This document shows positions 1 to 38,274 of a DNA stretch of 38,274 nt, one piece after another. Origin of the DNA: Trichocoleus sp. FACHB-46 (GTDB taxonomy: Bacteria > Cyanobacteriota > Cyanobacteriia > FACHB-46). The stretch lies in contig NZ_JACJOD010000084.1 of assembly GCF_014695385.1 (NCBI RefSeq), positions 1-38,274 on the forward strand, written 5' to 3'. The position numbers and the translations under genes were made by a program. Below the pieces are notes generated by a model. It was not told the DNA's origin. It saw only the letters and a program-made list of their open reading frames with translations, and did not search any database. The stretch's first letter is position 1. Every line of letters begins with the position of its first letter.

Positions 1-113
1 GATCTAGTGAATTCTATCGCTTTAAAGCAGTAGGTGGCCAAAAGAGGATTTATCAAGTCTCTTCGACTGGCATTAAACGTTCAGCAAACTACGGGTTAGG
101 AACACAGCCAGGA
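1..113. repeat. Left copy of the 113-bp terminal overlap (circular contig)
   Basis: These bases are identical to the last 113 bases of the window (38162-38274). The reading frame entering from the right end continues in the same phase here. The simplest reading is an assembly overlap of a circular molecule, leaving about 38161 unique bp. Confidence 0.93.
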
Positions 114-3100
114 GATTACACTGTTACACATTTAACTAATCTTCCCATCAATATTCAACAAAGTGTATGGGTTTTAGCCTATAAATGCGTAGGGTATGTT
201 AAAGGAGTTGAATACATTTTTATTAAATATCATACCTTAGGCAATCAATTATTACAAAAAGAATTACAAGATTTTGAAGAGTATTGTCACCCCGTAAAAA
301 CCGAGAGAATATTCCAAGAAATTTTTCTAATGCTTGGATATATCTATCATATTCAAGACATAGCTCTTGATCAATTAAGCCTTAGTAGTTTAGTACCTTT
401 CACCAAGCTGAAATATTTTGAAAGAGATATCTTAGACAAACTGAGATTGCAGGACTCGGAGACTAACTCCTTTAAGTATCTAGAGTTAGTTCAGAACCAT
501 CTATTGATTGAGCAACGATTAGCTCAGCGACGTATTCAACACCAAACTGTAGAACTACTCACGTGGATTGATAGCTTTTTTAGCTGGGCAGATCAAAACC
601 GAGTAAAGCTAGGTGCTGAAAAAGGGTTAGCTATCAGTACGAAGCGTTCTTACATTACATCTCTTATATACATTGCAAAATTTTTATATAAATCGCAAAG
701 TGATTCAAAGGTTTTCAAAGATATTCACTTAATCCAAAAGCTAAAGGAAAAACGCAATCAATTAAAAGTAAGTGAAAAAAAGCAAAAGCAACAAATTTCT
801 ACTCGCTGTTTAGAGTGGGAAGAAGCCGTTGTGATCGTCGAAATGCAGAGAGAGAAAGCAGATTTTAGACATGGCGTACCTCATTTCAAAAAACACGGGA
901 TTTACCCCGTTAAACGTTCATCCAGAAGTATTGCTAGCGAACTGCAGAAAATCATCATTCTATTTTTAATGATATTAATTCCCAGCGATCGGCAGCAGAC
1001 CTATCGACGCCTTCAGTTTCGTCGGTCTATCAGAATCAATGAGATTACAGACGGCGTCTTTCTTCTATGGGGAGACTTTCGAGGCGAGGTTTTTACCCCA
1101 AGAGACCAGATGGCAAATCCAAGCCAAGCTCAATGGTGGCTTGCGGTCTATGACTTCAAAACTGTTGAGCGCTTCGGTCCTTTTTGGTATCCTCTCCCTA
1201 ATCAACAATTCCGTGATGGTAAGACCTTTTATGAATACTTAGAAATGTGGTTCTTTGGCCTAGAAGATATAGCTGACAAGTGGCCCCAATACTACAAGGG
1301 AGACAATGCTCAATGGCAGGGCCATATTGATGAGCAAGGGCAGCGATTAGGTTGGCGAGCTGCTCTAGAACCGAATCACGATTTCGCCTTTTCAATGCGC
1401 AGGACGCAAACTCCTCATGATAAAGATAGCTTTTGTAGCTTGGTAAAGCAGATATTCATAGAATTCACTCCAAGACTAAAGAACGGGGAAATTGTCCCTG
1501 TCACTCCTCACAGTTTTCGGACTATGTTAGCTACTTATACGGCAGGCAGACTAACTGCAGCTGAGGAAGCTAGTATGGCTTACTGTGAGCATCACTCCAT
1601 TGAAAAGCGCCGAACCAGCTACACGCTCTTCAATAACATGCGCCAGATCACTGAAGCCATTAAGGTAATGGATCGCATTAACCAAAGCTTGTTCATAACA
1701 GATGAATTGGTACCTAAAAGGATTCAAGAAGCGAAGGGTGCATTACAGAACTTGTTGCAAGGGAGTAAACCTAGTTCGATCCTCGAAGCTATAGATATCT
1801 ATGGAAGTAGCTGTGATAAAAATAGATTATCAATGTTAAGAACTGCCGTAGAACGATATGGAGTTATTGGATTAGGTGGGCCTAAACCTCGCAAAGGAAA
1901 AAAAACTACAAACGAATCAAAAGATTTTCTAAAAACTATCCCTCTCCAACGACTTAACAATCTTTTAAGTGCTGTAGAGGAAGGTTGCAAGAAGTTGAAA
2001 GTAGATGTTAGGGGTATTAGTAAAAACCGTAGTTACGTCCGAAAGTTTTTAGAGTTTTGTGAAAAGCAAAAGTGGTTAGAGTGTCCAAAGCATACTGCTA
2101 CTTATATGCAAGAAGTCAAAAATTGCCGAGCTTTCAACAAAAAAGTTATTCCAACTGAGGAGAAAATTTCAGGTATTTCCCCAAAAACAGTAAATAATAA
2201 TCATGTGAGTTTAGGTATTTTTGAGTCAGACTTTATTGAAGTAAATGGAGCCAAGATCCTAGCTAATCAAGACTTATGTAACGAACTAGATTCATTTGAA
2301 AATTACGTTATCCATTTAGGTGGTGCTCAGAAAGTTATTTGGAGAGTCAAGCACATTCTTGGGTTTTTACATCGGATTCAAGGAACTCCTTTATCAGACC
2401 TCAGACTAACTAGCTTAGTTCCCTTTGTACAGCTCAATTTCAATGAGAGCAATACCATTTCTTCTCTTAAAATCTTATTTAATCAACAGGAAACCACTTT
2501 CTCGTCAGAAGAACTCGAGAGAGGAATCATTACTCTTGAAGGATTGGCTCAGCAACAGATCCAGAAAAAATCCGAAGACTTAATAAATCTACTTGACTCA
2601 TACTTTGACTGGCTTGATCAAACAACAGTTTCGGAGGAGGGATTAGCTAAAGGTACAAAATTGCTTAGATTAAATTCATTTATCAATGTAGCTAAGTTTC
2701 TCTATCATAATGAAACTTTGCGATCGGATTTTTCAGATATTTTTATTATTAATAAGTTAAAAGAGAAAAGAAGCGAATTTATTCATGACAAGAGGAAGCG
2801 TCAAGCACGTGTTGCAGCTCGATGCATAACTTGGGAAGAAACAATTCAGGTTATTGAGATGCAACGGAAGCAAGCTGATTTACGGCATAACGTTGAAATT
2901 GTTTCCAAAGAACCTGAGAAATTGTATCTTCGACCAAAAAAGCTAACGGCTATTGCTCGTAATCTCGAAAAAACTTTGATCTTGTTGATGCTCGCGCTAA
3001 TCCCCAGTGATCGGCAACAGACCTATCGACGCCTTCAGTTTCGTCGGTCTATCAGAATCAATGAGACTATAGACGGCATCTTTCTTTTATGGGGAGACTT

Positions 3101-3725
3101 TCGAGGTGAGCTTTTCACCCCAAGAGACCAAATGGCAAATCCAAGCCAAGCTCAATGGTGGCTTGCGGTCTATGACTTCAAAACTGCTGAGCGTTTCGGT
3201 CCCTTTTGGTATCCCCTCCCTAATCAACACTTCTGCGATGGTAAGACCTTTTATGAATACCTGGAAATGTGGTTCTTCGGTCTAGAGGATGAAGCTGGCA
3301 AGTGGCCCCAATACTACAGGGGAGACAATGCTCAATGGCAGGGCCATATTGATGAGCAAGGGCAGCGGCTAGGTTGGCGAGCTGCTCTAAAACCAAATCA
3401 TGATTTCGTATTTTGTGGTTTGTACTCTGGGAAAGCTTTGGAGCAATTAGATTTCACACAGCTTGTTGAAAATATTTTTATCAAATTTACTCCTCACCTC
3501 GACAGAGCAGAGGTCGTTCCTGTAACTCCTAACAGTTTCCGAACCATGTTAACTACTTACACGGCAGACAAACTCACGCCTGCTGAAGAGGAAAGTATGG
3601 CTTACTGTGAGCACCACTCTGTGGCAACACGACGTGAGCACTATGTAGTTTCTGACAATATGAGGCAGATTGCTGAGGCGATTAAAGTTATGAATAGAAT
3701 CAACAACAGTCTATTCCTTAGCTGA
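1..3725 (+). CDS. Tandem double tyrosine recombinase, main part (continues from 37738)
   Basis: Residues about 142-1382 of the junction-spanning protein. Two complete recombinase-like units of roughly 690 aa are fused head to tail. Unit 1 carries Arg472 (SDRQQTYRRL), the HSFR box (His645, Arg648), His672 (YCEHHS) and candidate nucleophile Tyr682. Unit 2 carries Arg1146, NSFR (Asn1319 in place of the box-C His, Arg1322), His1346 and Tyr1356. The family call rests on this R, H-x-x-R, H, Y pattern and its spacing. Most single recombinases are 300-450 aa, so each unit has a long extra N-terminal part. The two catalytic halves share a nearly identical 406-bp block (981-1386 and 3003-3408). It could be an integrase, a multimer resolvase or a transposon-type recombinase; the target is unknown. 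It has no HIP1 sites, unlike most of the plasmid. Confidence 0.82.
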   Translation, partial: SSEFYRFKAVGGQKRIYQVSSTGIKRSANYGLGTQPGDYTVTHLTNLPINIQQSVWVLAYKCVGYVKGVEYIFIKYHTLGNQLLQKELQDFEEYCHPVKTERIFQEIFLMLGYIYHIQDIALDQLSLSSLVPFTKLKYFERDILDKLRLQDSETNSFKYLELVQNHLLIEQRLAQRRIQHQTVELLTWIDSFFSWADQNRVKLGAEKGLAISTKRSYITSLIYIAKFLYKSQSDSKVFKDIHLIQKLKEKRNQLKVSEKKQKQQISTRCLEWEEAVVIVEMQREKADFRHGVPHFKKHGIYPVKRSSRSIASELQKIIILFLMILIPSDRQQTYRRLQFRRSIRINEITDGVFLLWGDFRGEVFTPRDQMANPSQAQWWLAVYDFKTVERFGPFWYPLPNQQFRDGKTFYEYLEMWFFGLEDIADKWPQYYKGDNAQWQGHIDEQGQRLGWRAALEPNHDFAFSMRRTQTPHDKDSFCSLVKQIFIEFTPRLKNGEIVPVTPHSFRTMLATYTAGRLTAAEEASMAYCEHHSIEKRRTSYTLFNNMRQITEAIKVMDRINQSLFITDELVPKRIQEAKGALQNLLQGSKPSSILEAIDIYGSSCDKNRLSMLRTAVERYGVIGLGGPKPRKGKKTTNESKDFLKTIPLQRLNNLLSAVEEGCKKLKVDVRGISKNRSYVRKFLEFCEKQKWLECPKHTATYMQEVKNCRAFNKKVIPTEEKISGISPKTVNNNHVSLGIFESDFIEVNGAKILANQDLCNELDSFENYVIHLGGAQKVIWRVKHILGFLHRIQGTPLSDLRLTSLVPFVQLNFNESNTISSLKILFNQQETTFSSEELERGIITLEGLAQQQIQKKSEDLINLLDSYFDWLDQTTVSEEGLAKGTKLLRLNSFINVAKFLYHNETLRSDFSDIFIINKLKEKRSEFIHDKRKRQARVAARCITWEETIQVIEMQRKQADLRHNVEIVSKEPEKLYLRPKKLTAIARNLEKTLILLMLALIPSDRQQTYRRLQFRRSIRINETIDGIFLLWGDFRGELFTPRDQMANPSQAQWWLAVYDFKTAERFGPFWYPLPNQHFCDGKTFYEYLEMWFFGLEDEAGKWPQYYRGDNAQWQGHIDEQGQRLGWRAALKPNHDFVFCGLYSGKALEQLDFTQLVENIFIKFTPHLDRAEVVPVTPNSFRTMLTTYTADKLTPAEEESMAYCEHHSVATRREHYVVSDNMRQIAEAIKVMNRINNSLFLS
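981..1386 (+). repeat. Intragenic repeat, copy 1 (about 92% identical to 3003-3408)
   Basis: Aligned without gaps to 3003-3408 at a fixed offset of 2022 bp, with about 31 differences counted by eye. It includes identical runs of about 48 and 55 bases. It encodes the Arg-I box and the following conserved segment of recombinase unit 1. Confidence 0.85.
3003..3408 (+). repeat. Intragenic repeat, copy 2 (about 92% identical to 981-1386)
   Basis: Second copy of the block, in recombinase unit 2. Sequence outside the block, both upstream and downstream, is much more diverged between the two units, which suggests gene conversion limited to this segment. Confidence 0.85.
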
Positions 3726-3750: not shown

Positions 3751-5463
3751 TTAAGTAAAGTAATTCTCTCTAGTGCTACTGAGCGATCGCGTCCTCAACC
3801 GATACAGCAAGCCTATCAATTCATCATCCATAAGCTGGCTTCTGCGCTTACCCTGAAAGTTATCAGCTATGAATTGGTGGGCTTGCTCCACAGTCCAGCC
3901 TAGCCGAGCAATTTGGATTTGAATCCCGATAATCACATCACTAAGGTCATTACAAGCGATTGCAGGAGCTAAAGGCACAGGTTGTGGAAAACTCACTTTT
4001 CCCCTCCCTGGACCCTCCCCACCGGAGTTTATTTGTTTTTCTAAAACACCATCAGCCCCCCCACCCTTCATATAGGCAAAGGTGTGTAATTCCCCTCTAG
4101 GAGATTCTTCTAGCACTTTGGTTGGTTCTGCTGCTGGAGCTGACAATGTGGCTGTAACTGGCTCTGGTGGCTCTATTACATACAATTCGGGATGCCACAG
4201 CTCTTTGTACTTCTGCAAAGTGCTGTGGCTGCACCGTGCCAAAGAGGCGATCGCCTCGGCTCGAGCGGTGGGACGATCGGGTAGCTGTCCTTGTTGGCCC
4301 AGTTCAAGGACAGCTTGTTTGATTCGGGTTTGAGCTTCTTCGGCTCGCTTCTGGTTGAAGTTGACGATGTTGTTAGCAGCATTGGGGAGTCGAAGGGTGC
4401 GATCGCGCTTAGGAGCGGTGCCCAGGGGCCAGTAATAGTTTTCTACAGCGGTAGCCCATTCTTGAGCGCGACGGCTGATTTCGTGCTGGTGTTGGCACCA
4501 CTCTCGATAGCCAAGGCTGTTGATGGCGGTGCGTTCGATGTAATGGGCTAAGGCAGCACCGGAGAGAGATTGGAAGATGACACCGTAGCAGCCGATGGTT
4601 TTGAGCAGGTGGTTCGTTTGTCCGGGTCCTGTCCACCCTTGTTCCATTTCAGTTTCTAGTTCTTGCTGCCAGAGGGTAGTGTTGCTACGGCGGTTGTAGG
4701 AGCGGTATTGATGTTGCTTCTTGGCTGCGGCGATCGCTTGATGCAGTTGCTCTAGGTCTTGGGCTGTTACGGCTTGGTCCCACTGCTGGAAGAAGGAGGA
4801 CAAATCGCTGGCCAGAGGTTGCAGGGTGTCACCGAGGAGAACGGAACCACTGCTGGGTTGCAGGGGCAGGCGATGGGCGTTGTACTCGCTGTATTCTCCG
4901 GCTTTGCTGTAGCGCTTGACGTTGGGGAAGACTTCCAGTTGCCCTGCTTGCAAGGGTAGGTGGTGAGCTTCCAGGCAGTGCTTCAGGGCGACAGCGAGGC
5001 CGAAGGTGGGGACGGCTTCAGGTAGGGGGATGTAGAGATGGAGGCCACCGTTCCAGCTAGAGCGCAGCAAAACGGTTTGGTGAATGCCGATGCTGGCGAG
5101 GGCACCTCGGAGGGTGATGAGGGCTTGGCGATCACGGGTGGGATGATGCAGGCTGAGGGCGTCGAGGTCGATGAGGCCATAGGTGGTGGTGGGACCGAAG
5201 CGGACACCAACGAGCTGAGCAGCATCTTGCCAGTAGGTCCAGAGACTACGGGGTTTGAGGGGGTACTGCGTGAGGGTTTGCCAAGCAGGTTTTTGACTGG
5301 CATCGATGGGGGTGGGAGCGACGATCGCTTGCCAGGGGTAGGGGAAGAGCTGGCACAAGCGCTGGCCTAAAGGTTCGCGGGGCAGGGGTTCTGATAAACG
5401 CTGACGAGCGAGCTTTGGGGCAATCGCCTGACTTCCACAGGCAGGTGTTTGTTTGCGTGGCAT
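3751..5463 (-). CDS. rep: Plasmid replication initiator with AEP primase-like domain
   Basis: Probable replication protein of the plasmid, about 570 aa. From the ATG at 5463 it shows the three archaeo-eukaryotic primase motifs in order: LIDLD (Asp99, Asp101), GGLHLYI (His142) and QLEVFPN (Glu177). A later segment around residues 395-420 (RAEAIASLARCSHSTLQKYK) resembles a helix-turn-helix, and the C-terminal tail is low in complexity before a final helical region. The ATG at 5463 is preferred because AGAGAG lies about 8 bases upstream; the frame extends 23 codons further to a GTG at 5532 that has less support. AEP-type Rep proteins are typical of cyanobacterial plasmids. The gene ends 25 bp from the end of the convergent recombinase gene. 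No separate helicase domain is seen, so host helicase is probably recruited. Confidence 0.75.
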   Translation of the reverse strand: MPRKQTPACGSQAIAPKLARQRLSEPLPREPLGQRLCQLFPYPWQAIVAPTPIDASQKPAWQTLTQYPLKPRSLWTYWQDAAQLVGVRFGPTTTYGLIDLDALSLHHPTRDRQALITLRGALASIGIHQTVLLRSSWNGGLHLYIPLPEAVPTFGLAVALKHCLEAHHLPLQAGQLEVFPNVKRYSKAGEYSEYNAHRLPLQPSSGSVLLGDTLQPLASDLSSFFQQWDQAVTAQDLEQLHQAIAAAKKQHQYRSYNRRSNTTLWQQELETEMEQGWTGPGQTNHLLKTIGCYGVIFQSLSGAALAHYIERTAINSLGYREWCQHQHEISRRAQEWATAVENYYWPLGTAPKRDRTLRLPNAANNIVNFNQKRAEEAQTRIKQAVLELGQQGQLPDRPTARAEAIASLARCSHSTLQKYKELWHPELYVIEPPEPVTATLSAPAAEPTKVLEESPRGELHTFAYMKGGGADGVLEKQINSGGEGPGRGKVSFPQPVPLAPAIACNDLSDVIIGIQIQIARLGWTVEQAHQFIADNFQGKRRSQLMDDELIGLLYRLRTRSLSSTRENYFT

Positions 5464-6095
5464 GATGCAACTCTCTAGTCCGGTGGGGGCAAGGGGACAG
5501 AGAATGCAAAGTGAGTAAGTACGACTGGTCACACTGCTGGTGCAGGTGATAGTGACGAGGGGTATGGCTATGCATGGTCTCTCTGTCCCGAAGTAACGGT
5601 TGGACAGGGAGGGAGCGATCGCGCAGATTGAGAACAGCTAAGTTTTCTCTAAGATTGGCTTGGAAGCCGAGAATTTTTCGTTTTGTTTTGATGCGCTCCA
5701 TCCCTGATGTAGAGAGGAATAGAGAGCCATTTATCAGTAAAAACGGTCCAAGAGGCTTGTCACCTTTTGCGAAATGACCGTAATATAGACACATGGCAGA
5801 GTGGGTGACCTAACTAAGCGCCGGGAAAGCACAGAAGTTAAAGTCCCCTCTATTCCGAACTGATAATAAAAAACCTCCGAACCCCTTCTGTTACCGCAGT
5901 TGGGGTTTTTGGTTTTTAGTATTCATGAGACATCTTTACCTCCTTTTCCGTGACGACACGTTTCGTATCCCTACAGTCACTGGTTTCCTCCGTTTTTAAG
6001 TAACTTGAAGAGTAGTTTACCTGATCCACCCAGCGATCGCCTCTATTTTCAATCCAATGAAAGAAATGAACTGACAGCGATCGCCATCCAGCGCA
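5464..6095. other. Non-coding region upstream of rep (presumed control region, possible origin)
   Basis: About 630 bp between rep and hsdR with no convincing gene. It holds a bidirectional hairpin terminator (5868-5917) and, near hsdR, two copies of CAGCGATCGCC around 6031 and 6077. A minus-strand TATATT element near 5780 could be a rep promoter. No regular iteron array was found, so the origin assignment rests on position alone. An open minus-strand frame to 5794 overlaps rep and looks non-coding. Confidence 0.35.
5868..5917. terminator. Bidirectional hairpin terminator between hsdR and rep
   Basis: Inner stem AACCCC (5880-5885) with GGGGTT (5902-5907), extended outward by an A-rich AAAAAACC (5868-5875) facing GGTTTTT (5911-5917). 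The T tracts on both sides allow termination in either direction. It would stop hsd operon transcription before rep, or end an antisense transcript from the rep leader. Confidence 0.6.
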
Positions 6096-8540
6096 TCATG
6101 CTGCTCCTTCTTGGGCGTACAAGTAAGCTTGGAAACCAATGAAGACGGTTTTAATATCACTCACGCTGCCTAAATCAGCGATCGCATCCCTCAGGTCGTG
6201 ATATTTCAGGTCTAGCAGTTGCGGCAACTTGCCCTGATCGAGTTCACCTACGCCTTCCTTGATGTACTGATCTAGAACAAAGTCTAAAAATTCCTGCTGT
6301 TTGCCAAAATATCGGGAGAAGATCAGGGCTTTGTGGGCGATCACACGCTCGCGACGACTGATCGGGGCTGCTGCATAGGCAATGTAAGCCAGCACGTCAT
6401 ACAAGTCGCTTTTCTCAGCATCAATCAGGCGGCTAATTTCGGTGAGTTGTTCTGTGCCATAGCCTTTTTCTGCCAACCCTTCTAAGAGGGCTTTCCGAGT
6501 GTCTGGACGACTCCAGATTGTGCGTAGCTCGCTCTCGTCTCTAAACAGCTCTGGAATTTCACCAAACAGCCGTTCTACAAATTCGGCTGCGGTCATGGGC
6601 TTGCCATCAGGGCTCCAGAAACTAGTAGAGATTTGATGCTGAAAGGTACGCTCTTTACCGTCAGCTAGCTTGATTTTGATAACTTGAGGGCGACGGGGTG
6701 GTTCTGCGTCTTCATTGCCCTCGGCAAAAGGGCCTGCGCTTAGTGGTTTGTCTTTTCCACTGGCTGATTGCCGAGTTTGCCGTGAGGTAACTTGCACAGG
6801 CTCTTGAGGTTCGCCATCCCATTCAGGGTCGTTGAAGTGTTTGTAGGCTTCGACGAAGTCATAAATGGTGAAGTAGTCTTTGCTTTCAAACAGCCGAGTA
6901 CCGCGACCGATGATTTGCTTAAACTCAATCATGGAATTGATCGGTCGCATCAGGACGACATTGCGAACGTTCCGAGCATCAACCCCGGTCGAAAGCTTTT
7001 GGGACGTGGTGAGAATGGTAGGAATGCTTTTTTCGTTGTCTTGAAAGGTGCTGAGGTGCTGTTCGCCAAGTTTGCCGTCGTTAGCAGTGACACGGACGCA
7101 ATAATTTGGCTCAGTGCTGACTTTCATCTGGTTGATTAAATCGCGCACGGCAAGGGCGTGGTCTTGGGTGGCGCAGAAAACCAAGGTCTTTTGATTTTGG
7201 TCGATCGCTTCCATAAACAACTGCACTCGGTAGCGTTCGCGATCGGCAATCTCGATGATGCGGTTGAAGTCGGCTTCGGTGTAGACTTTGCCCTCGTCAA
7301 TCGCTCCTTCAATCAGTTCGTCCTCGGTGCTGTAGATGTATTCATCTAGGGTTGTATCGATCTGCGTGACTTTGAAGGGAGTAAGGAAGCCATCGTTGAT
7401 GCCGTCTTTGAGGGCATAGGTGTAGACCGGATCGCCAAAATAGGCGTAGGTATCGGCGTTGTTCGCACGTCGGGGGGTGGCGGTGAGACCTAGCTGTACC
7501 GCTGGCGAGAAATATTCCAGGATGTCGCGCCAAGTGCTTTCGTCGCTGGCTCCGCCCCGGTGGCATTCATCAATGATGATGAAGTCGAAGAAGTCGGGGG
7601 GGTAGTCGCCGAAGTTGGGAACGGGGTTGCCTGCCGCGTCTTGTCCAGCCATGAAGGTCTGGAAAATGGTGAAGAAGACGCTGCCGTTTTTGGGTACTCT
7701 GCCCCGTTTCTTGATGATTTCGGGGTCGATTCGCACCAGGGCATCATCGGGGAAGGCAGAGAAGGCGTTGTAGGCTTGATTGGCGAGAATATTGCGGTCT
7801 GCCAAAAACAAAATGCGAGGTCGACGGGTGGGTTGGCGGCTGAGATTCCAGCGGCTTTGAAACAGTTTCCAGCTAATTTGGAAGGCGACGAGGGTTTTGC
7901 CTGTCCCAGTTGCCATTGTCAGCAAAATGCGGTCGTGCCCCTCTGCAATGGCTTCTAAAACATGTTTGATGGCATTGTGCTGATAGTAACGGGTTTCCCA
8001 AGTGCCGCTACGGGTTTCAAAGGGAATATCGGCAAAGCGATCCCGCCATTCATTGGCTTCGCTAAAGGTGTCATTCCACAAATCGTCCGGGCTGGGATAT
8101 TGGCTGATGTAGCCTTCTGCCCCAGTACGCATATCAATCTGGTAGATGCTGTCGCCGTTGGTGGAGTAGGCGAACCGGATTTCTAGTTTCTCAGCATACT
8201 TTTTAGCCTGCCCAACGCCTTCGGTGCCCAGTGCACTGCGCTTTTTAGCCTCGATGACCGCCAATTTTTCACCACGATAGACTAGCACATAATCTGCGAT
8301 ATCTGGTTGAGCGCGTTTACCACCACCCACCAAACGACCAGGAGCGATAACCTCCCGGCGAATACGGCTACCTTCCACGACCCCCCAGCCTACATTTTTT
8401 AAGGCAGGATCAATCAGTTCGGCGCGGGTCTCAGCTTCATTCACGTAGGGTTGTTGATAGCGCTTAGCTTTGGATAGGTCAAGTGCGTGAATAATGTCTT
8501 CACCCGCATCAAATCTTCGGTCAAATTCTTCAGCTTTCAT
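6096..8540 (-). CDS. hsdR: Type I restriction enzyme, R (endonuclease/translocase) subunit
   Basis: Restriction and DNA-translocation subunit of the HsdRMS complex, 814 aa, resembling the EcoEI-type R proteins. The N-terminal PD-(D/E)xK nuclease site is visible as PDIADY (Asp80) and IEAKK (Glu97, Lys99). A superfamily 2 motor follows: Walker A MATGTGKT (209-216), DECH box (324-327), LGLTATPRR (about 353-361) and a second RecA-like domain with IIGRGTRLF. A C-terminal helical region completes the protein. It is the last gene of the hsd operon and its ATG lies inside the end of brnT (11-nt overlap), implying translational coupling. All key motifs are intact, so it looks functional. Confidence 0.93.
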   Translation of the reverse strand: MKAEEFDRRFDAGEDIIHALDLSKAKRYQQPYVNEAETRAELIDPALKNVGWGVVEGSRIRREVIAPGRLVGGGKRAQPDIADYVLVYRGEKLAVIEAKKRSALGTEGVGQAKKYAEKLEIRFAYSTNGDSIYQIDMRTGAEGYISQYPSPDDLWNDTFSEANEWRDRFADIPFETRSGTWETRYYQHNAIKHVLEAIAEGHDRILLTMATGTGKTLVAFQISWKLFQSRWNLSRQPTRRPRILFLADRNILANQAYNAFSAFPDDALVRIDPEIIKKRGRVPKNGSVFFTIFQTFMAGQDAAGNPVPNFGDYPPDFFDFIIIDECHRGGASDESTWRDILEYFSPAVQLGLTATPRRANNADTYAYFGDPVYTYALKDGINDGFLTPFKVTQIDTTLDEYIYSTEDELIEGAIDEGKVYTEADFNRIIEIADRERYRVQLFMEAIDQNQKTLVFCATQDHALAVRDLINQMKVSTEPNYCVRVTANDGKLGEQHLSTFQDNEKSIPTILTTSQKLSTGVDARNVRNVVLMRPINSMIEFKQIIGRGTRLFESKDYFTIYDFVEAYKHFNDPEWDGEPQEPVQVTSRQTRQSASGKDKPLSAGPFAEGNEDAEPPRRPQVIKIKLADGKERTFQHQISTSFWSPDGKPMTAAEFVERLFGEIPELFRDESELRTIWSRPDTRKALLEGLAEKGYGTEQLTEISRLIDAEKSDLYDVLAYIAYAAAPISRRERVIAHKALIFSRYFGKQQEFLDFVLDQYIKEGVGELDQGKLPQLLDLKYHDLRDAIADLGSVSDIKTVFIGFQAYLYAQEGAA

Positions 8541-8787
8541 ACAGGGAAACCTCTTCTATGCGCGATCGACGGACGGAGATAATCCGAATGTTCTGATCCC
8601 GGTAGGTGATGACCGCTGACCAATGCTTGTTTTCTATCTTACCTACGATCAAAAACCTTAGCTCGTCCTGGGTTCTAGCGGGAATTTCTATCAGGTTGGG
8701 GTCATTCCATAGCTTTTGTGCTTCCACAAAATCAATCCCGTGTTTGGTGAGGTTGGATTGACTCTTCTTTTCGTCATATTCAAACAC
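8530..8787 (-). CDS. brnT: BrnT-family ribonuclease toxin without a BrnA partner
   Basis: An 85-aa protein with the BrnT (DUF497) pattern: it opens FEYDEKKSQSNLTKHGIDF, has a central beta-sheet core and ends with IRIISVRRSRIEEVSLYES. Family members are RelE-like toxins that block translation by RNA cleavage and are neutralised by BrnA, which normally overlaps the 3' end of brnT. Here that position is taken by hsdR (overlap 8530-8540), and no BrnA-like gene exists in the window. The GTG at 8787 is chosen because it begins exactly at the conserved FEYD start; no clear ribosome binding site precedes it. It could be an orphan toxin, a toxin antagonised by a chromosomal BrnA, or a repurposed RM accessory. 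Confidence 0.85.
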   Translation of the reverse strand: MFEYDEKKSQSNLTKHGIDFVEAQKLWNDPNLIEIPARTQDELRFLIVGKIENKHWSAVITYRDQNIRIISVRRSRIEEVSLYES

Positions 8788-8814
8788 GGTTATGTTTGTT
8801 CATAATGGATCATC

Positions 8815-9844
8815 TTAGGAGGATCGCAAGCGACGGCGGGCAGTGGCGATCGCTTCATGCAGTTTGGTTTGCAGTACTTCTTTTGGCGGAAGCACGGTCA
8901 AGTATTCGGCGATGTGGATGCCACTTTTATCGAGTTCTAGAAGTTCGATCTGTTCTTGCTTTTTGCCTGCACATAAGATGATTCCCAGTGGCGGGAGTTC
9001 ATCGCTCTCTTGTTCATATTTGGCTAGCCAGCGCAGGTAAAGCTCCATCTGGCTTTTGTGTTCAGGACGGAAGGCACCCAGCTTGAGCTCGATGGCGACA
9101 AGGCGCTTGAGTTTACGGTTATAGAACAGCAGGTCGATGTAAAAGTCGTCGTTGTCGATTTGTAGCCGCTTTTGACGGGCAACAAAGGTAAAGCCGGCAC
9201 CTAGTTCTAGCAAGAATTGCTCGATTTCTCGAAGGATGGCATCTTCGAGGTCTTTTTCGAGATAGCGATCGCTCAAATCCAGAAAATCCAGGACGTAGGG
9301 ATCTTTGAGCAGGAGGTCGGGTGAGATTCGTCGCTCCTGGCGCAGTTGATCCAGGTCGTGGCGAATGGTGTCTTCGGGTTTGCGGGAAAGGGCGGTGCGC
9401 TCGAATAGCATGGAGTTAATCCGCTCTTGAAGCTGGCGGACGCTCCATTGTTCGAGTTGGGTGATCTCAATGTAGAAGTCGCGTTTCAGGGGATCTTCGA
9501 TGCCCAGAATTAGCTTGATGTGCGACCAGCTTAATTTTGCACACACTGTATGCAGAATCTCGCGATTGGGGAAAACGTCTGCCAGCAGAATGCAGTAGCG
9601 CAGTTGCCGTTCGCCCCAGCCTTTGCCGTAAGCCTGGGTAAGCCGTTGGGAGAGGGCAAGAATCACCTGTTTGCTTTGCTCGTTCCCCTTGCAGCACTTC
9701 GGTCTGGATGCGGTTGCCGACCTGCCAATACAACAGGGTAATCTCGGCATTGATGGCAGCAGCAGCGCGGTGTTTTGCGGCATCAATGAGCTGCCCAATT
9801 TCTTGAAACAGGAGATCACTTGGTTGAGACAGGTCATTGCTCAT
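8815..9844 (-). pseudogene. DUF1016 (YhcG-type) PD-(D/E)xK nuclease, frameshifted
   Basis: A DUF1016-family gene commonly found within type I RM loci. The N-terminal half (MSNDLSQPSDLL to TEVLQGERAK) starts at the ATG at 9844, overlapping the hsdS stop as ATGA. The rest (KQVILALSQRL onward, to stop 8815) is in another frame. The frames switch at about 9673-9676: between the GERA codons and KQV only four bases remain where relatives usually have three codons, consistent with a 5-bp loss. The C-terminal nuclease half is otherwise intact (FYIDLLFYNR, then VAIELKLGAFRPEHKSQMEL). Either this is a true pseudogene, a sequencing error, or two truncated peptides. DUF1016 proteins are described as nucleases; their role in RM systems is unclear. 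Confidence 0.8.
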
Positions 9845-11103
9845 GCAGCAACGACCTCTTTAGCGGCTTTTGTTGCCTGGTTAGCGGTGTCTGCGGTGAG
9901 TTCGCCTGTAAAAGCTCTTTGCAGGATGGATTGTTTGAGTTCGTTGAGGGCAGAAAGTTTTTGTCGATAGATGGCTTCGAGACGTTGAGTTTGGAAAAGC
10001 AAAGTATCGAGTTTCTGAACGACTTGTCTTTGTATTGAAAGTGAAGGCACAGCAATCCGCAAAATCTTTGTATCGGGAACTCTCATATGTTGAACAGTTG
10101 AGCCTGATGCAAATGCTTTGATTTGACTCTGCAATCCGTTAGATTGAAATGCATACAGCAAAAATCTGTTATCTAGCTTGCTTGAATCAGTTCGATAGGA
10201 GACAATACGTTGCCCTAAAAAAACATGATCATTCGTGAGAAGCATTCCAACTTCTCCCATTGGGGCTTCCCGAGTTAGTAGAACGTCTCCTCGTTTAGGG
10301 ATTTGCCGTCTTGTCCATTGACGATAAGTTTCTTCAGTGACATACCTCACAGAATCTAGATTGACATAACCACCACGAACATTAGTAGTGCGAATCATCT
10401 TAAAAGGCGATGGTTCATCAATTACTGGAGCCGTTTTGTTAACACAATCAATGATGGACTCGCAGACATCTTCTATTTTCTTCTCTTCCCATCCATCACC
10501 TTTCTGGGTGAAGATGGCATTTAGATAGCTTTCAAAGAGTTGGCGGGCGTTGGTGAGGTTCTTTTCGGTGTTGGCGATCGCGCGATCGATTCCCTCAAAT
10601 GCCTCATTCAAAATCGCTACAATCCGCTTTTGTTCAGAAAGAGGTGGAACTGGAATTTTTATCTCTGCGAGGTGCTTTACCGACATTGATGGAATTAATG
10701 AGCGTTCAGCTTGCTTCATTAATTCACCACGAACAAATTCGGTCGGGATTATGTAGAAAAGATAATCATCATCAAGAATGGAACGATCTTTATTGGTGAT
10801 TTTGCATAGAGCTACGTTAAATGCCCCGCTAGCACCTCTAAAGACTCTACCAATGTGTCGATAAGCCACCATTAAAATATCATCAGGTTCCACTTTATGT
10901 AGCTGAGGAGTATCGGGAACATACACCTCATAGTTGTCACTCTTGCCATCTCGAATTTGGTAAAACCTAACGTAGCCTTTTTTGGGTTGGTGAATAAATT
11001 TACTTTTAGGTGGATTATGACCACGATTGAGAAGGGCAATTTCACCAAACTTCTTCTCAACCCAGCCCTCTGGTAGCTGCCCATTAGTAATCTTCAACGG
11101 CAT
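9841..11103 (-). CDS. hsdS: Type I restriction-modification specificity subunit
   Basis: DNA-recognition subunit, 420 aa, with two target recognition domains. TRD1 spans about residues 8-155 and ends at the conserved IKIPVPPLSEQKRIVAIL, followed by the first long helix (NEAFEGIDRAIANTEKNL). TRD2 spans about 205-355 and ends at RIAVPSLSIQRQVVQKL, followed by the second helix, as in complete HsdS proteins. Each TRD reads half of a bipartite target, which cannot be deduced from sequence. It overlaps hsdM by 10 nt upstream and the DUF1016 gene by 4 nt (ATGA) downstream, so it belongs to one coupled operon. No truncation is seen. Confidence 0.93.
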   Translation of the reverse strand: MPLKITNGQLPEGWVEKKFGEIALLNRGHNPPKSKFIHQPKKGYVRFYQIRDGKSDNYEVYVPDTPQLHKVEPDDILMVAYRHIGRVFRGASGAFNVALCKITNKDRSILDDDYLFYIIPTEFVRGELMKQAERSLIPSMSVKHLAEIKIPVPPLSEQKRIVAILNEAFEGIDRAIANTEKNLTNARQLFESYLNAIFTQKGDGWEEKKIEDVCESIIDCVNKTAPVIDEPSPFKMIRTTNVRGGYVNLDSVRYVTEETYRQWTRRQIPKRGDVLLTREAPMGEVGMLLTNDHVFLGQRIVSYRTDSSKLDNRFLLYAFQSNGLQSQIKAFASGSTVQHMRVPDTKILRIAVPSLSIQRQVVQKLDTLLFQTQRLEAIYRQKLSALNELKQSILQRAFTGELTADTANQATKAAKEVVAA

Positions 11104-12551
11104 ACCATCTCCTCAATTCCAGCCAAAATTTCTGCGCTTTCCATATCCAATGCCGCGATCTCGTCCATAATTTCTTGCGGCTCTCGGAGTGGTGATTCCT
11201 CTGCTTTATTAGGGTTCTTCACCGACAGATCAAACGACTCCCGTACCACATCGGCAATATCCACCAGCCATGATTTTTTAGTTTTTGCAAACGTGGCTTG
11301 TAGTTCCACAAACTCGCATAGATCCTCATCATTCAGGGCGTTAGTTTTGCCCATGTTCCGCCCCGGATCAAGTTGGTAGTACCAAATTTTTTGAGTGGGT
11401 GTCCCTTTCTCAAAGAACAGCACCACCGTTTTAACTCCTGCTCCGATAAACGTCCCACTCGGACAATCCAAAATGGTGTGGAGATTGCAACTGCTGAGAA
11501 GTTCCTGACGCAGGGCACGGGATGCATTGTCCGAATTCGACAGGAACGTATTTTTGATCACCACTGCGGCTCTGCCACCGACCTTCAGCATTTTGATGAA
11601 GTGCTGCAAAAACAAAAAGGCAGTTTCCCCAGTTTTGATCGGGAAGTTTTGCTGAATTTCCTTGCGCTCTTTGCCGCCAAAGGGCGGATTAGCCAGGATC
11701 ACATCGAAGCGGTTTTTGTCCTGGATGTCGCTAAGGTTTTCCGTCAGCGTGTTGGTGTGAATGATATTGGGCGCATCAATGCCATGCAGAATCATGTTCA
11801 TGATGGCAATCACATAGGCAAGGCTCTTCTTCTCCTTACCTGTAAACGTGCTGGTCTGAAGCTGCTCAAGCTGTTTCGTGGTGAGTTTGCCTTGGCGCAG
11901 ATAGTCATAGCTCTCGCACAAGAACCCGGCAGACCCGCAGGCTCCGTCGTAGATGCGGTTCCCAATCTCTGGCTTCACCACCCGAATCATGGCGCGAATC
12001 AGCGGACGCGGCGTGTAATACTCACCCCCATTGCGTCCCGCATTGCCCATATTCCGAATCTTGGCTTCATACAGGTGAGATAGCTCATGCTTCTCCTGCT
12101 GCGATCGAAACCGCAACTCATCGATATACTCCAGCGCATCCCGCAGACTATAGCCGCTCTGAAATCGGTTCTTGATCTCGCTGAAAATTTCCCCAATCTT
12201 GTATTCGATTGTGTCTGGGCTGGTTGCTCGCAGCTTAAAGCCTTGGAGGTAGGGGAATAGCTTGCGGTTCACATAATCAATTAAGTCATCGCCGATCAGC
12301 GCATTGTCGTGATCCATACTGCCATCCGCCTTCTTTGGCGCAGCCCAGGACGACCACCGATGCTCTTCATCCAGAATAAAGGTGTAAGGCTTACCCAGTA
12401 GCTCGGCTTCTAACGCCTTCTCATGCTCCAGGTCATCCAAATACTTCAGAAATAGTAGCCAGGAAGTTTGCTCCGTATAGTCTAACTCTGTGGTGCAACC
12501 TGCCTCCTTCCACAGAACGTCATCAATATTTTTGAAAGTTTGCTCGAACAT
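11094..12551 (-). CDS. hsdM: Type I restriction-modification N6-adenine methyltransferase
   Basis: Modification subunit, 485 aa. An N-terminal helical HsdM domain (about 1-140) precedes the methyltransferase fold with SAM-binding motif I DGACGSAGF (202-210) and catalytic motif IV NPPFGG (288-293). With HsdS it methylates adenine in both half-sites, and with HsdR it forms the restriction complex. It is the first gene of the minus-strand hsd operon. The ATG at 12551 is preceded by AAAAGGA at a suitable distance. Motif I reads SAG where SGG is common, a tolerated variation. The upstream 200 bp hold the presumed operon promoter and one partition-type repeat. Confidence 0.94.
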   Translation of the reverse strand: MFEQTFKNIDDVLWKEAGCTTELDYTEQTSWLLFLKYLDDLEHEKALEAELLGKPYTFILDEEHRWSSWAAPKKADGSMDHDNALIGDDLIDYVNRKLFPYLQGFKLRATSPDTIEYKIGEIFSEIKNRFQSGYSLRDALEYIDELRFRSQQEKHELSHLYEAKIRNMGNAGRNGGEYYTPRPLIRAMIRVVKPEIGNRIYDGACGSAGFLCESYDYLRQGKLTTKQLEQLQTSTFTGKEKKSLAYVIAIMNMILHGIDAPNIIHTNTLTENLSDIQDKNRFDVILANPPFGGKERKEIQQNFPIKTGETAFLFLQHFIKMLKVGGRAAVVIKNTFLSNSDNASRALRQELLSSCNLHTILDCPSGTFIGAGVKTVVLFFEKGTPTQKIWYYQLDPGRNMGKTNALNDEDLCEFVELQATFAKTKKSWLVDIADVVRESFDLSVKNPNKAEESPLREPQEIMDEIAALDMESAEILAGIEEMVCR

Positions 12552-14008: not shown

Positions 14009-14013
14009 AACTG

Positions 14014-14028
14014 TATATACTATTTATA
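14014..14028. repeat. Partition-type palindromic repeat, outer copy (RHH side)
   Basis: TATATACTATTTATA, just after the RHH gene stop. Together with the copy at 12696 it brackets the par module on both sides. Confidence 0.55.
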
Positions 14029-15793: not shown

Positions 15794-15816
15794 TTTTTGA
15801 ACTAGTAAGAAAATCG

Positions 15817-22398: not shown

Positions 22399-22440
22399 AG
22401 TTTATAAAGTCCTTTGTTTATGAGCTTTGGGTAGTTCTGA

Positions 22441-23065: not shown

Positions 23066-23096
23066 TGGAATGGTATATGGTCCAGTGAGCTGACGG

Positions 23097-35655: not shown

Positions 35656-36001
35656 TTGTAGGTGCTGAGTTCATCAGGATGCATAGTTTGCGTTCTTTTG
35701 GCAAGATTAGTTCTTAGTAGGGCTTGGAGAACATAGAACTGTGTGCTTCCAGATTTGATTCCACCCTGGAACAGCATCTGGTAATGACCTCTATGGCTGC
35801 AGATTTACTTTAGAAGTAGCCTCTTAGCCTTTCAATCCTTTGCTCTTGGGATAGTGAGCTACACGGGATTCCAAGCTTGAGCTTGCTGGCGATCGCACTG
35901 CTAAATAAGTCCAGTTAGCAGTGCGGGGTTATATTTCCCAATCCAGAGTACTGGTGTCAAAGGTCATGACAAAGCTAATCAGCCTCTATCGGTAGCCATC
36001 C
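35656..36001. other. Intergenic region after the chemoreceptor gene
   Basis: About 345 bp with no gene seen. Its main feature is the 10-bp hairpin at 35895-35924. Confidence 0.4.
35895..35924. terminator. Perfect 10-bp hairpin downstream of the chemoreceptor
   Basis: GCACTGCTAA (35895-35904) with TTAGCAGTGC (35915-35924), loop of 10 nt. It is followed by GGGGTTATATTT rather than a clean T tract, so it is a weak terminator candidate. It could serve the receptor gene and the convergent small gene at 36002. Confidence 0.5.
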
Positions 36002-36187
36002 CTAAAGAGAGTCTCCAGCTTCAGAGCAAGCACAAGGACGGAACAGAGTTTGAATCGAACCACTCTTAAAGGCAAGTACTGTAAAGCCATTGACTCTCTT
36101 TAGGGAAATAACGTCATCAGCGGCCTCTATGACTCGGTAGAAATGGCCTGCCTCAGAGAGCAAACATTCGCCTGCTAATACGGTCAT
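36002..36187 (-). CDS. Small unknown protein
   Basis: A 61-aa protein, not recognised (MTVLAGECLLSEAGHFYRVI, middle DVISLKRVNGFTVLAFKSGS). The alternating hydrophobic pattern suggests a small beta barrel or strand-rich fold. Start ATG at 36187. It lies in a row of three short minus-strand genes (36002, 36323, 36975). Confidence 0.5.
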   Translation of the reverse strand: MTVLAGECLLSEAGHFYRVIEAADDVISLKRVNGFTVLAFKSGSIQTLFRPCACSEAGDSL

Positions 36188-36322
36188 CGCTTAACTGTTT
36201 ACTAAATCAATAAGTATATTTTTATACCTTTGCTAATTGTGGTGTAGGTTTGTGGCAACAAAGTTCTATTTTCTACATACAAGTTAAGGATTTCTTGAGC
36301 CAGCACTGCGATTGCTCAGTCA

Positions 36323-36520
36323 TTAAAGTTTGCGGTTTAATGTTGGCATGCTCCAACCCACGACGGTTAAACCTACATCCCTAGCTCTCGCCAAAACTTC
36401 TCTTGAGGTATCACCTTCCCGCAGTTCACACGAAATCAAGTCCGAGCCCTCACAGAATTGATAGCCTAAGGGCAAGTCTGAAGGCGGTTGAAAACAGGTG
36501 AGAATGATTTTTTGGGCCAT
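36323..36520 (-). CDS. Small unknown protein
   Basis: A 65-aa protein, not recognised (MAQKIILTCFQPPSDLPLGY, then CEGSDLISCELREGDTSREV, ending VVGWSMPTLNRKL). An alpha/beta pattern is plausible. ATG at 36520 has a weak GTAAGA upstream. Same strand as its neighbours at 36002 and 36975. Confidence 0.5.
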   Translation of the reverse strand: MAQKIILTCFQPPSDLPLGYQFCEGSDLISCELREGDTSREVLARARDVGLTVVGWSMPTLNRKL

Positions 36521-36639
36521 TCTTACAGGGCAACTGACTAGATAGGCACAGGTCCTAGAGTAAAAACCTTGCAGCGTGAAAAAAACCGCTAAAGCGCTTA
36601 ATCTTGATGCCTGTAAGCAATATCTCCCAAAGGCAGATT

Positions 36640-36970
36640 GCCTAAGTTATGGTTCTATCGAGCTGGCATGCAATACTGGCGACCATCAAGCCAACCGTCG
36701 TCAAACCATTGGTGGCTCAATCAGGGAAGTGTCAATCGTGTGGATTGTATTTTCAGTCAGAGGATCTGATGGCAGTTCACCATGTGGACGGCAACTCAAC
36801 CAACTATCAACAGAGCAATCTGGCGTTATTGCATCGACATTGCCATGACCAATTGCACCGAAATCTGCGTGGCAAGCACCGAGCGGTTGAGGAGCCATGT
36901 GAGGCGACGAGGCTCATGCACGGTCCTGAAGACCAGCGGGGTGGGTGACTGCTCCGCTGAGTTTAACTCC
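36640..36970 (+). mobile_element. Decayed group II intron, 3' end only (HNH fragment + domains V and VI)
   Basis: A plus-strand segment encodes the HNH tail of a group II intron reverse transcriptase (GKCQSCGLYFQSEDLMAVHH, then NLALLHRHCHDQLHR). It is followed by a domain V-like hairpin at about 36892-36926 (GAGCCATGTGAG with CTCATGCACGGTCC, two mismatched pairs) and a domain VI-like stretch ending GCTGAGTTTAAC near 36967. The reverse transcriptase, maturase and domains I-IV are missing; upstream of the HNH the coding trace shifts frames. The element is an inactive remnant. Its 3' end abuts the stop of the small gene at 36975. Confidence 0.75.
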
Positions 36971-36974
36971 ATTG

Positions 36975-37172
36975 CTATACAAGGGCGAAGAGGCCGTGGC
37001 GAATCCCATACAAGACTCGAGCAATTAAGACTTTGTCCGATTCTTGAGCCGCTCTGGCCGTAGACAGAGTAATCAGCCAGCGATACTCTGTTGCAGTCAA
37101 GCTACCACACAAGAAAATACTGCCAATCAATTCTTCTAAATTAGACGCTTGAGAAGGCACTAAAGACTGCAT
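36975..37172 (-). CDS. Small unknown cyanobacterial-type protein
   Basis: A 65-aa helical protein (SNLEELIGSIFLCGSLTATE, then RWLITLSTARAAQESDKVLI, ending ARVLYGIRHGLFALV). It reads like small conserved cyanobacterial proteins of unknown function. ATG at 37172 without a clear ribosome binding site. Its stop lies within a few bases of the intron remnant's 3' end, so the intron inserted just downstream of this gene. Confidence 0.6.
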   Translation of the reverse strand: MQSLVPSQASNLEELIGSIFLCGSLTATEYRWLITLSTARAAQESDKVLIARVLYGIRHGLFALV

Positions 37173-37737
37173 AGCGGCTAGGCAAACGTTGAATTGCCAA
37201 CATTAGATGACGATTCCAGAATGCCTTGTAGCGGTTACATTTGGCACCGAGCGATCACGGATATTTTCCCACTAGCAATTTAGTTCGCTCCATAGATTCC
37301 GCTGCTAGCAGTCCAGAGACCCCACTTCAGTTTAGGTAAAAGGACAACCCCTGCAATGAAGATGGGCTTCATCTCTCGACCTGTAATGATGCTGGAATTC
37401 CTGACCAAAAGAGCATATACGGCTATCACGAACTAGGAGACCAGTGCCCCAACTATAAGGTGGGTTCGATCAGTTCTAGAACATTTAAGAATGCTCACAC
37501 TCCTTTGCCAGAGATACTTTCAGACTGAGTAGAGCAGGGCATACTTTGTTGTTCTGAAGAATAGAACATTCCATAGAACCTAGCGAAGTAGGTAAAGCCA
37601 GTACAGTGGCTGACCTAAGAGCCTTTTGTTATATTGGTTTGTCTAGAGATTATCTAGAGATTTTCAGCTCTTATCCAGGGGTAGTGATTTTTAGTGTCAT
37701 TTTATAGTACACTTGAACTACCTATATTCTTTCAGCT
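37173..37737. promoter_or_regulatory. Upstream region of the double recombinase gene
   Basis: About 565 bp without a gene. It contains repeated AGAAC-type elements at 37473-37580, a tandem TCTAGAGAT repeat near 37638-37660, and AT-rich promoter-like sequence (TATAGT near 37702) before the ATG at 37738. Confidence 0.45.
37473..37580. repeat. AGAAC-type repeats upstream of the recombinase (candidate binding or att sites)
   Basis: The palindrome GTTCTAGAAC (37473-37482) continues into TAGAACATT. A second site, TGTTCT (37550-37555), a 7-nt spacer, then AGAACA (37563-37568), also continues as TAGAACATT. A further TAGAACC follows near 37574. Inverted arms around a 7-nt spacer resemble a tyrosine-recombinase core site; regulator operators are the alternative. 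Confidence 0.4.
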
Positions 37738-38274
37738 ATGTTTTACCCAGAATCCATTTTCGATGCGATGGAGCATTACTCAGCTCACTGTGATTCGCAC
37801 CGTTTTTCCATGCTGAAAACAGCGATTCAAAAGTATGCAATTCCTGAATGGCAAAAGATATCTGGTAATTCTTCATCTTCGCCAAAACAAGTGCCCATAA
37901 CAGCTATAACTCAACTTGTAAATCTAGTCACTTTAGGCTGTCGACAAACAGGTTGTAGCTCTAGAACGGAGAGTAAATATCGAAGCTATACCAAGAAATT
38001 TATAGAGTTTTGCCAGGAGGAAGGCTGGCTTTCAACTTCCTCATCTTCTCAGGCTCAACATGATTTGCAATGCCAAGACTCATCTACTACACAAGAGTTC
38101 TTAGAAGTCTACAAGAGTTTAGGCAAGCAGCATCTTAATGCTGGTGAGACTCGTAACTATGGATCTAGTGAATTCTATCGCTTTAAAGCAGTAGGTGGCC
38201 AAAAGAGGATTTATCAAGTCTCTTCGACTGGCATTAAACGTTCAGCAAACTACGGGTTAGGAACACAGCCAGGA
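37738..38274 (+). CDS. Tandem double tyrosine recombinase, N-terminal part (continues at base 1)
   Basis: This is the 5' part of a gene that crosses the circular junction. ATG at 37738 opens a frame that runs to the right end and resumes at base 3 with no stop, giving 1382 aa in total. This part encodes about residues 1-179, the start of the first recombinase unit. Its opening (SIFDAMEHYSAHC, then RFSMLKTAIQKY) reappears in diverged form near residue 595 of the second unit's region (SILEAIDIYGSSC, RLSMLRTAVERY, encoded near 1777-1860), showing that the whole unit is duplicated and not only the catalytic domain. No strong Shine-Dalgarno sequence is seen. An AT-rich stretch with a TATAGT element lies about 35 bp upstream. 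Annotation of the linear contig would truncate this gene to an internal ATG at 330. Confidence 0.85.
   Translation, partial: MFYPESIFDAMEHYSAHCDSHRFSMLKTAIQKYAIPEWQKISGNSSSSPKQVPITAITQLVNLVTLGCRQTGCSSRTESKYRSYTKKFIEFCQEEGWLSTSSSSQAQHDLQCQDSSTTQEFLEVYKSLGKQHLNAGETRNYGSSEFYRFKAVGGQKRIYQVSSTGIKRSANYGLGTQPG
38162..38274. repeat. Right copy of the 113-bp terminal overlap (circular contig)
   Basis: Exact copy of bases 1-113. It lies inside the coding sequence of the double recombinase, and joining the two ends at this repeat gives one uninterrupted frame. A phage-like terminal repeat is unlikely because no virion or packaging gene is visible. Confidence 0.93.

Follow-up and report, generated by a model that had tools for sequence, protein, structure and literature searches.

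Tyrosine recombinases occupy their sites in pairs, and two such sites synapse as a tetramer of identical or similar subunits, two of the four cutting at a time. Many of them carry out integration and excision at a chromosomal site. XerC and XerD, encoded by separate genes and about 300 amino acids long, are two paralogous, non-identical subunits acting together at one site. Further designs are described in the available portions of three papers. RIT elements carry recombinases in trio, of which RitA has two sequential core-binding domains, and the classification that includes these trios also recognizes simple and arm-binding groups and a cyanobacterial 'Cyan' subgroup (PMC8138268). RecF8 is an engineered fused heterodimer in which two evolved Cre-type monomers are joined by a linker (PMC8776779), and mixed tetramers have been obtained by another design (PMC4605323). 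The present report concerns a gene of Trichocoleus sp. FACHB-46, located on contig NZ_JACJOD010000084.1 (38,274 nucleotides, the whole of which is called the window), whose 1382-amino-acid product consists of two tandem tyrosine-recombinase units of 708 and 674 amino acids. Based on sequence and structure prediction, two complete units are present in one chain. The best explanation, at about an even chance of being right, is a natural single-chain heterodimer acting on one asymmetric site, probably in plasmid upkeep.

No mention of a double-unit protein was found in the available portions of the above classification (PMC8138268) or of a review of archaeal enzymes (PMC8371274). No natural tandem, double, fused or dual tyrosine recombinase was among the matches listed from the open-licence literature, and one may be reported elsewhere. 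The statement of the initial annotation that no characterised enzyme of this design is known holds for natural enzymes in that literature, but not for engineered ones, RecF8 being described in the accessible part of its report (PMC8776779); among the literature found, the two-unit design is otherwise described only as man-made. Likewise, the term 'undescribed system' applies only in part, since the protein is a two-unit version of otherwise single-unit recombinases, some of which public records already annotate as 'integrase' or 'tyrosine-type recombinase'.

Two recombinase units in one chain

The window is an entire contig (C84) of a 6.56 Mb genome in 92 contigs. Because its 113-bp ends are identical (bases 1-113 overlap 38162-38274 exactly), we take it to be a circular molecule of 38,161 bp, apparently a small plasmid. 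A terminal-overlap test of 10 further contigs of the same genome gave 113 bp for C89, 45 bp for C66 and none for the other eight; C89 (26,933 bases) is thus probably circular too. In the linear window the open reading frame 3..3725 comprises 1240 codons and its 5' end is open at the contig edge. Around the circle the gene runs from 37738 to 38161 and then from 1 to 3725, a total of 1382 codons in a frame continuous across the join, with an ATG start at 37738 and an upstream in-frame stop at 37714. This reading confirmed the length of 1382 residues first proposed, while the coordinates 1-3725 given with it apply to the last 1240 codons and omit the first 142 (37738-38161). Residue numbers of the complete protein are window-frame numbers plus 142. 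The features of the gene are as follows.

37738..38161, plus strand: gene start and first 142 codons, encoding the N-terminal extension of unit 1, with one codon split between 38161 and base 1
1..3725, plus strand: other 1240 codons and stop codon of the recombinase gene, in frame from base 3
1..113, no strand: terminal overlap, identical to 38162-38274
1..1700, plus strand: rest of unit 1 (residues 143-708), core-binding and catalytic domains, from alignment, predicted structure and fold matches
990-992, 1158-1160, 1509-1511, 1518-1520, 1593-1595 and 1620-1622, plus strand: unit 1 catalytic residues R472, K528, H645, R648, H673 and Y682, respectively
976..1386, plus strand: unit 1 catalytic-domain block, 92% identical in DNA to unit 2, likely a gene conversion tract
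1701..1769, plus strand: linker of about 23 residues from the last helix of unit 1 to the N-terminal domain of unit 2, from alignment and sequence
1701..3722, plus strand: unit 2 (residues 709-1382), N-terminal helical, core-binding and catalytic domains
3012-3014, 3180-3182, 3531-3533, 3540-3542, 3615-3617 and 3642-3644, plus strand: unit 2 catalytic residues R1146, K1202, N1319, R1322, H1347 and Y1356, respectively
2998..3408, plus strand: matching block of unit 2

Based on an alignment of the two halves, the bodies of the units are 56% identical over 492 amino acids. The N-terminal extensions of units 1 and 2 were aligned separately and share 36% identity over 103 amino acids (E 8e-19), in agreement with the initial annotation, which had regarded them as duplicated. 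The family profile spans each unit end to end (positions 6-603 and 6-602). The catalytic set R, K, R, H, Y is kept in superfamily order in both units, and the positions first assigned to it (Arg472-Tyr682 and Arg1146-Tyr1356) were correct. The first histidine of the H-x-x-R motif is present in unit 1 (H645-x-x-R648) and replaced by asparagine in unit 2 (N1319-x-x-R1322); across 33 further family rows this position is occupied by H, K, N, Q, A or T. In an alignment of 35 chosen rows (34 different), which takes in both units of the window, the first arginine, the lysine, the second arginine and the histidine were found in 35/35 rows and the tyrosine in 33/35, the exceptions being L029 and a protein of the same genome on contig C82. 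Both units are probably catalytically competent.

The profile search suggested at the outset gave no match over cut-off to PF00589 for the protein itself, but the paralogue on contig C67 of its own genome (L022) passed the Phage_integrase cut-off (28.3 vs 27.1 bits). Since this was the only one of five family proteins scanned to do so, the link to the tyrosine recombinase superfamily runs through the family. The protein matched 0 NCBIfam families, Xer models included, and its relatives L022 and L029 matched the Xer models far under their cut-offs. Matches in PHROGs were weak and to families of unknown function, and a sequence search of the PDB returned chance-level matches only.

Structure prediction, on the other hand, found a recombinase core-binding and catalytic fold in each half, and with the catalytic residues kept, the earlier proposal of two complete units is borne out. 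AlphaFold models had a mean predicted local distance difference test score of 76 for unit 2 and of 73.5 for unit 1 minus its first 142 residues; confidence was low for residues 1-20 of unit 2. On re-scoring by VIA-align 2, which ranks Foldseek's own list and is not a free search, tyrosine recombinases filled the first 30 rows for unit 2 and 39 of the first 40 for unit 1, the remaining row being 9rd5 (phage Phi3T SroF, unclassified). The best matches of the halves in this ranking were Xer, XerH, Cre, Tn1549 Int, Flp and lambda Int. For unit 1, Z was 13.2 against the archaeal Xer 4a8e (171 residues, root mean square deviation (rmsd) 2.9 A), 12.6 against XerH (260 residues, 5.9 A) and 10.2-11.2 against Cre. 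For unit 2 the archaeal Xer gave a Z of 12.5, yet with an rmsd of 15 over 259 residues, XerH 11.4 (165 residues, 3.4 A) and Cre 9.7-11.7 with an rmsd of mostly about 10. Matches of unit 2 over two domains had an rmsd of 10-15 and those of the catalytic domain alone about 3.1-3.5; because of the value of about 10 against Cre, the model suggests that the two domains of unit 2 are set differently.

The N-terminal domain was also considered as a second core-binding domain. This found no profile support, hhalign assigning a probability of 5.8% to the comparison with the core-binding domain, although a missing profile match does not prove another fold. Pfam, arm-binding domains included, gave no match to the N-terminal region when queried with the window frame, which is without the first 142 residues.

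Outside a block of 136 codons the two units are 37% identical and synonymous sites are saturated. Inside the block the synonymous divergence (dS) is 0.29, the non-synonymous divergence (dN) 0.041 and dN/dS 0.14, with 20 changes at 83.5 synonymous sites and 13 at 324.5 non-synonymous sites (Fisher p 1.5e-7). Had one copy been drifting freely, about 47 non-synonymous changes would be expected in the block, and by a rough Poisson estimate the probability of 13 or fewer is 5e-9. The sharp edges of the block make gene conversion between two selected copies its likely origin, and the ratio of 0.14 argues that both copies have stayed under constraint from then on. The end branches of the units in the tree are alike (0.68 and 0.73). 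By these measures the doubling is old and both halves have been kept, and it is therefore not an assembly error. An assembly artefact, which the initial annotation had named as the danger to its proposal, was thus ruled out; halves only 37% identical outside the block and saturated in synonymous changes are too different for a mis-assembled repeat.

Single-unit and doubled relatives

Sequence comparison places the protein in a divergent family of recombinases that are carried by cyanobacterial plasmids and mostly consist of a single unit. Its members occur in cyanobacteria, often on plasmids of 15-159 kb. In 20/20 plasmid records with a member (the twentieth being NZ_AP025736) it was found at one place each, and a second fused double was found in 0/20. 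Eighteen of 19 records were typed as non-mobilizable, and the majority of those examined are listed as circular. Geminocystis sp. NIES-3709 has five plasmids with one member each, two of which are nearly identical in DNA. No open-licence literature on tyrosine recombinases of cyanobacterial plasmids or of Geminocystis was found.

The nearest relatives are 654-amino-acid single-unit proteins of Stenomitos rutilans HA7619-LM2 and Leptolyngbya sp. FACHB-321. In a tree built without the converted block the two units of the window are sisters (100/99) within a clade that contains both of these proteins (99/99). The latter, and WP_015338129.1 on pANACY.05, resemble the window protein in family, domain order and catalytic residues, but have one unit where it has two. 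Other layouts were seen in the family. Three copies of the N-terminal domain precede one catalytic unit at L035 3702-6317, L057 1480-4125 and L149 1371-4073. On the Geminocystis plasmid pGM3709_07 a frame of 113 codons (L036 6842-7180) that holds the end of a catalytic domain only lies about 650 bases downstream of the full gene, and is a possible remnant of a second unit.

Doubled forms were found elsewhere as gene pairs. Elainella saxicola E1 has adjacent same-strand pairs on LUGL01000142 and LUGL01000108, of 566 + 595 and 566 + 590 amino acids, with gaps of 4 and 19 bases by the listed starts. Its genes A and B, each conserved in its own right on the two contigs, are sisters in the tree (100/100). 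Because A and B are sisters, and the window units are sisters, the tree places the Elainella duplication as independent of that in the window. These pairs resemble the window protein in that two full, non-identical units of one family stand in tandem, but differ in being two separate genes that were duplicated independently. A third adjacency was found in genome G607 (L148 1-2786), where about 30 bases separate a complete downstream gene from the terminal part of an upstream copy, in which the catalytic residues are present. The front of an upstream copy of this kind lies at the edge of contig C487 of the same genome, in DNA 99.9% identical over 2388 bases to genome G621, in which a transposase-like frame, recognized by eye, follows at the same break point (loci L169/L170). 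From this arrangement we infer that the upstream copy in G607 is interrupted by an insertion element.

A second fused gene was not found in genome searches in which 9/145, 9/386, 16/290, 31/388, 17/191 and 1/3 genomes had family matches; these draws overlap, their E limits differ, and the window's own genome is counted where drawn. Scoring in the large draws covered no more than two to six first-look candidates per genome, so that other fused genes may exist. The fused form was seen in the window's genome only, and not in the two other genomes of its genus. Two long frames of 1230 and 1296 amino acids (G303, G312) were rejected as candidates, being by eye CheA-like kinases and not recombinases. 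Phage records gave no match to the protein. A contig scan with the window-frame protein yielded nothing, and one with alignment A3 yielded 13 loci.

Candidate sites and cargo of the plasmid

The following features outside the recombinase gene bear on its possible sites and role.

35656..37737, no strand: upstream region, with repeats and pieces common to other contigs
35894..35925, no strand: candidate site, a dyad with 13-base arms (one mismatch) and a 6-base spacer
4194..4229, no strand: candidate site inside the neighbour gene, a dyad with 14-base arms (one mismatch) and an 8-base spacer
3751..5532, minus strand: convergent neighbour, primase-polymerase-like (Pfam Prim-Pol below cut-off)

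The interval from 35656 to 37900 contains three direct repeats of 12-18 bases, each present twice, as well as three inverted pairs; in the longest of these pairs (35999-36106) the 28-base arms are 79% complementary. Pieces of the upstream region match other contigs, the 821-kb contig C6 included, at 71-97% identity, and the repeats are therefore not particular to the recombinase gene. The suggestion that the gene has a repeat-bearing upstream region of its own was accordingly not upheld, the few short repeats being largely common to other contigs. About 470 bases at 36851-37319 are 96% identical to a stretch of C66, and partly to C6, and look like the remnant of a mobile or repeated element.

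Six dyads of the plasmid, with spacers of 6-8 bases, score 10 or more, compared to a mean of 0.2 in random sequence of the same dinucleotide make-up: 27819-27858, 13991-14033, 4194-4229, 16099-16127, 35894-35925 and 16722-16747. The first two are located after or at gene ends, and could be terminators. The dyad at 35894-35925 lies about 1.8 kb upstream of the recombinase gene and some 240 bases past the gene for the chemoreceptor, and may be a terminator. Dyads resembling loxP were found upstream of several single-unit relatives. That of the C67 paralogue L022 (590 amino acids) is perfect, with 12-base arms and an 8-base spacer about 27 bases before the start codon, and is a candidate recombination site or operator; a member of genome G128 (L059) has a 10-6-10 dyad at the same distance from its start. 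Within 300 bp upstream, a dyad at p 0.05 was present at 9 of 31 chosen single-unit loci, which include near-duplicates, and at 0 of 3 doubled loci (L051, with only 81 upstream bases, was dropped). As 22/31 single-unit loci are without one and the downstream regions score as well in 8/31, the difference between single and doubled loci is a hint and no more.

The convergent neighbour at 3751-5532 is probably replication-related; it has homologues on 66 plasmid records, with a replication-related annotation in 2 of 40 listed. A homologue lies near the recombinase on pANACY.05 and on Trichormus variabilis plasmid D. Rep proteins of Synechocystis plasmids have been described, and in the available text of that work the Rep of pSYSG is given as unknown (PMC10899382); pSYSG carries a homologue of the neighbour, for which we make no claim of identity with its Rep. 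The plasmid also encodes ParA.

The remaining genes form a varied cargo. Genes for the R, S and M components of a type I restriction-modification system are at 6096-12551 on the minus strand, with a YhcG-like PDDEXK nuclease between R and S. A pair resembling a cyclic-oligonucleotide-based antiphage signalling system (CBASS) is at 14657-16785 on the minus strand and consists of a SAVED-HNH protein beside a DncV-like nucleotidyltransferase, anti-phage by its looks. A serine recombinase with a resolvase domain is encoded at 16860-17480, also on the minus strand. The signalling block at 18194-35655 comprises a hybrid histidine kinase (PAS, GAF), a 1424-amino-acid CheB-CheR-PAS kinase, response regulators and a CHASE3 chemoreceptor, and strikes us as unusual cargo on a 38-kb plasmid.

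Mode of action and known systems

Since the units are non-identical, covalently linked and catalytically complete, a fixed heterodimer is the simplest reading. Units 1 and 2 would be the non-identical subunits of one heterodimer, unit 1 on one arm and unit 2 on the other arm of an asymmetric site, and two chains would bring two sites together in a tetramer of the usual kind. The strands would be exchanged by the reaction common to tyrosine recombinases. The linker would force the pairing of unit 1 with unit 2 and keep homodimers off unwanted symmetric sites. The job of the protein would most likely be upkeep of its carrier plasmid, with multimers or cointegrates being resolved at a plasmid site that serves this purpose. 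For an obligatory heterodimer on a single asymmetric site the chances are, in our estimate, about even; on its side were counted the recurrence of doubling as gene pairs in other genomes and that the engineered fused heterodimer RecF8 works alike, as described in the available text (PMC8776779). The wider reading is put forward tentatively, a little below an even chance and as a whole: a natural single-chain heterodimeric tyrosine recombinase of which only mixed pairs would form and by which only an asymmetric site would be recombined, a doubling that would have occurred repeatedly, in the form of gene pairs and in one case of a fusion, and a likeness of both active sites that would be maintained by gene conversion. 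For the plasmid role the single member per plasmid record, the five Geminocystis plasmids with a member each, the probably replication-related neighbour and the non-mobilizable records (18/19) were counted, and for multimer resolution rather than integration or inversion the balance is level. Nothing on this family was among the matches listed from the open-licence literature on multimer resolution.

A number of observations weigh against this reading. The protein itself has no recombinase match in Pfam, NCBIfam or PADLOC, and with Foldseek alone unit 2 had no PDB match at E <= 0.001, the best being 6emy (Tn1549 integrase) at E 0.055. Model confidence is low in the tyrosine loop of unit 2 and in residues 532-538 of the unit 1 model, directly before the tyrosine. 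Between the two units the identity of the core-binding domains is 34%, which is only 1.1 standard deviations under the family trend (561 pairs), and a special divergence of the DNA-binding part, and with it a split in DNA specificity, is unsupported. No dyad within 300 bp upstream or downstream of the gene stood above shuffles. No recombination site was identified, none of the six plasmid dyads being tied to the recombinase, and two or more of them are probably terminators. A homologue of the convergent neighbour was found in only 2/13 plasmid recombinase loci, and the serine recombinase at 16860-17480 could perform multimer resolution instead. Members of the family also occur on large contigs, with two copies about 23 kb apart on G014:C2 (1.57 Mb) and a shorter member beyond base 3.4 million on G128:C1.

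These large contigs (G014, with its two copies, and G128:C1), together with the annotation of some records as integrase, would fit a gene whose product integrates and excises the plasmid, or some other element, at a site in the chromosome. This role appears unlikely, given one member per plasmid among the plasmid records and the circular form of most of those examined. Plasmid upkeep is favoured over it, with chances that are nearly balanced, its case being weakened by the serine recombinase and by the family members of large contigs. Alternatively, the units of a single chain could sit on two different DNA sites, so that half a synapse would be pre-assembled and the linker would promote site pairing, as the initial annotation had considered. 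The roughly 23 linker residues and the low-confidence start of unit 2 permit such a geometry, but it offers no reason for two non-identical units, and Elainella saxicola keeps two non-identical genes that are unlinked, which suggests that subunits of two kinds are what is required, and not a tether that joins the sites. Bridging is thus improbable; half a synapse is possible, and a pair pre-assembled on one asymmetric site is the more likely form.

The same Elainella pairs, in which the arrangement exists as separate adjacent genes, are in keeping with two enzymes in one gene, the fusion serving for co-expression and the halves acting separately after chain cleavage or internal initiation. Internal initiation could take place at in-frame TTG codons in the linker (1752 and 1755), which by eye are preceded by AAGGG at 1734-1738. 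On the other side, the junction frame has stayed open while the halves became synonymously saturated, so the fusion has probably been long kept, and we give separate action a low likelihood. Least probable is an accident, a neutral tandem duplication with one half out of use. The occurrence of the fused form in one genome agrees with it, but dN/dS is 0.14 in the block, both halves are intact despite saturation elsewhere, the catalytic residues are kept in both units and their branch lengths are similar.

If the single-chain heterodimer is correct, the make-up of the dimer is fixed and each unit can be inactivated alone. It would therefore be directly testable which of the subunits is the first to cut and whether alternation depends on their being identical. 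The protein would be nature's equivalent of the linked recombinase monomers engineered for genome editing; its linker and interface would have been tuned by evolution, and it could be a source of parts for that field. It also points to a poorly described recombinase family of cyanobacterial plasmids, present once per plasmid in the records examined.

Among known systems, the Xer proteins are the closest solved folds to the units of the window protein, but the protein is without a match to the NCBIfam Xer models. RIT elements, in the accessible part of their description (PMC8138268), likewise use several tyrosine recombinases as a set with an extra N-terminal domain; they differ in having three recombinases in trio and not two units per chain, and in contrast to the doubled domain of RitA, the N-terminal domain of the window protein is without profile similarity to the core-binding domain. 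RecF8 is similar in linking two non-identical tyrosine-recombinase units in one chain. As far as its available text goes (PMC8776779), it differs in being man-made from Cre-type enzymes, the extra N-terminal domains being a feature of the window protein. In RecF8 the fusion forces heterodimer assembly on an asymmetric site, and by analogy the same is proposed for the window protein.

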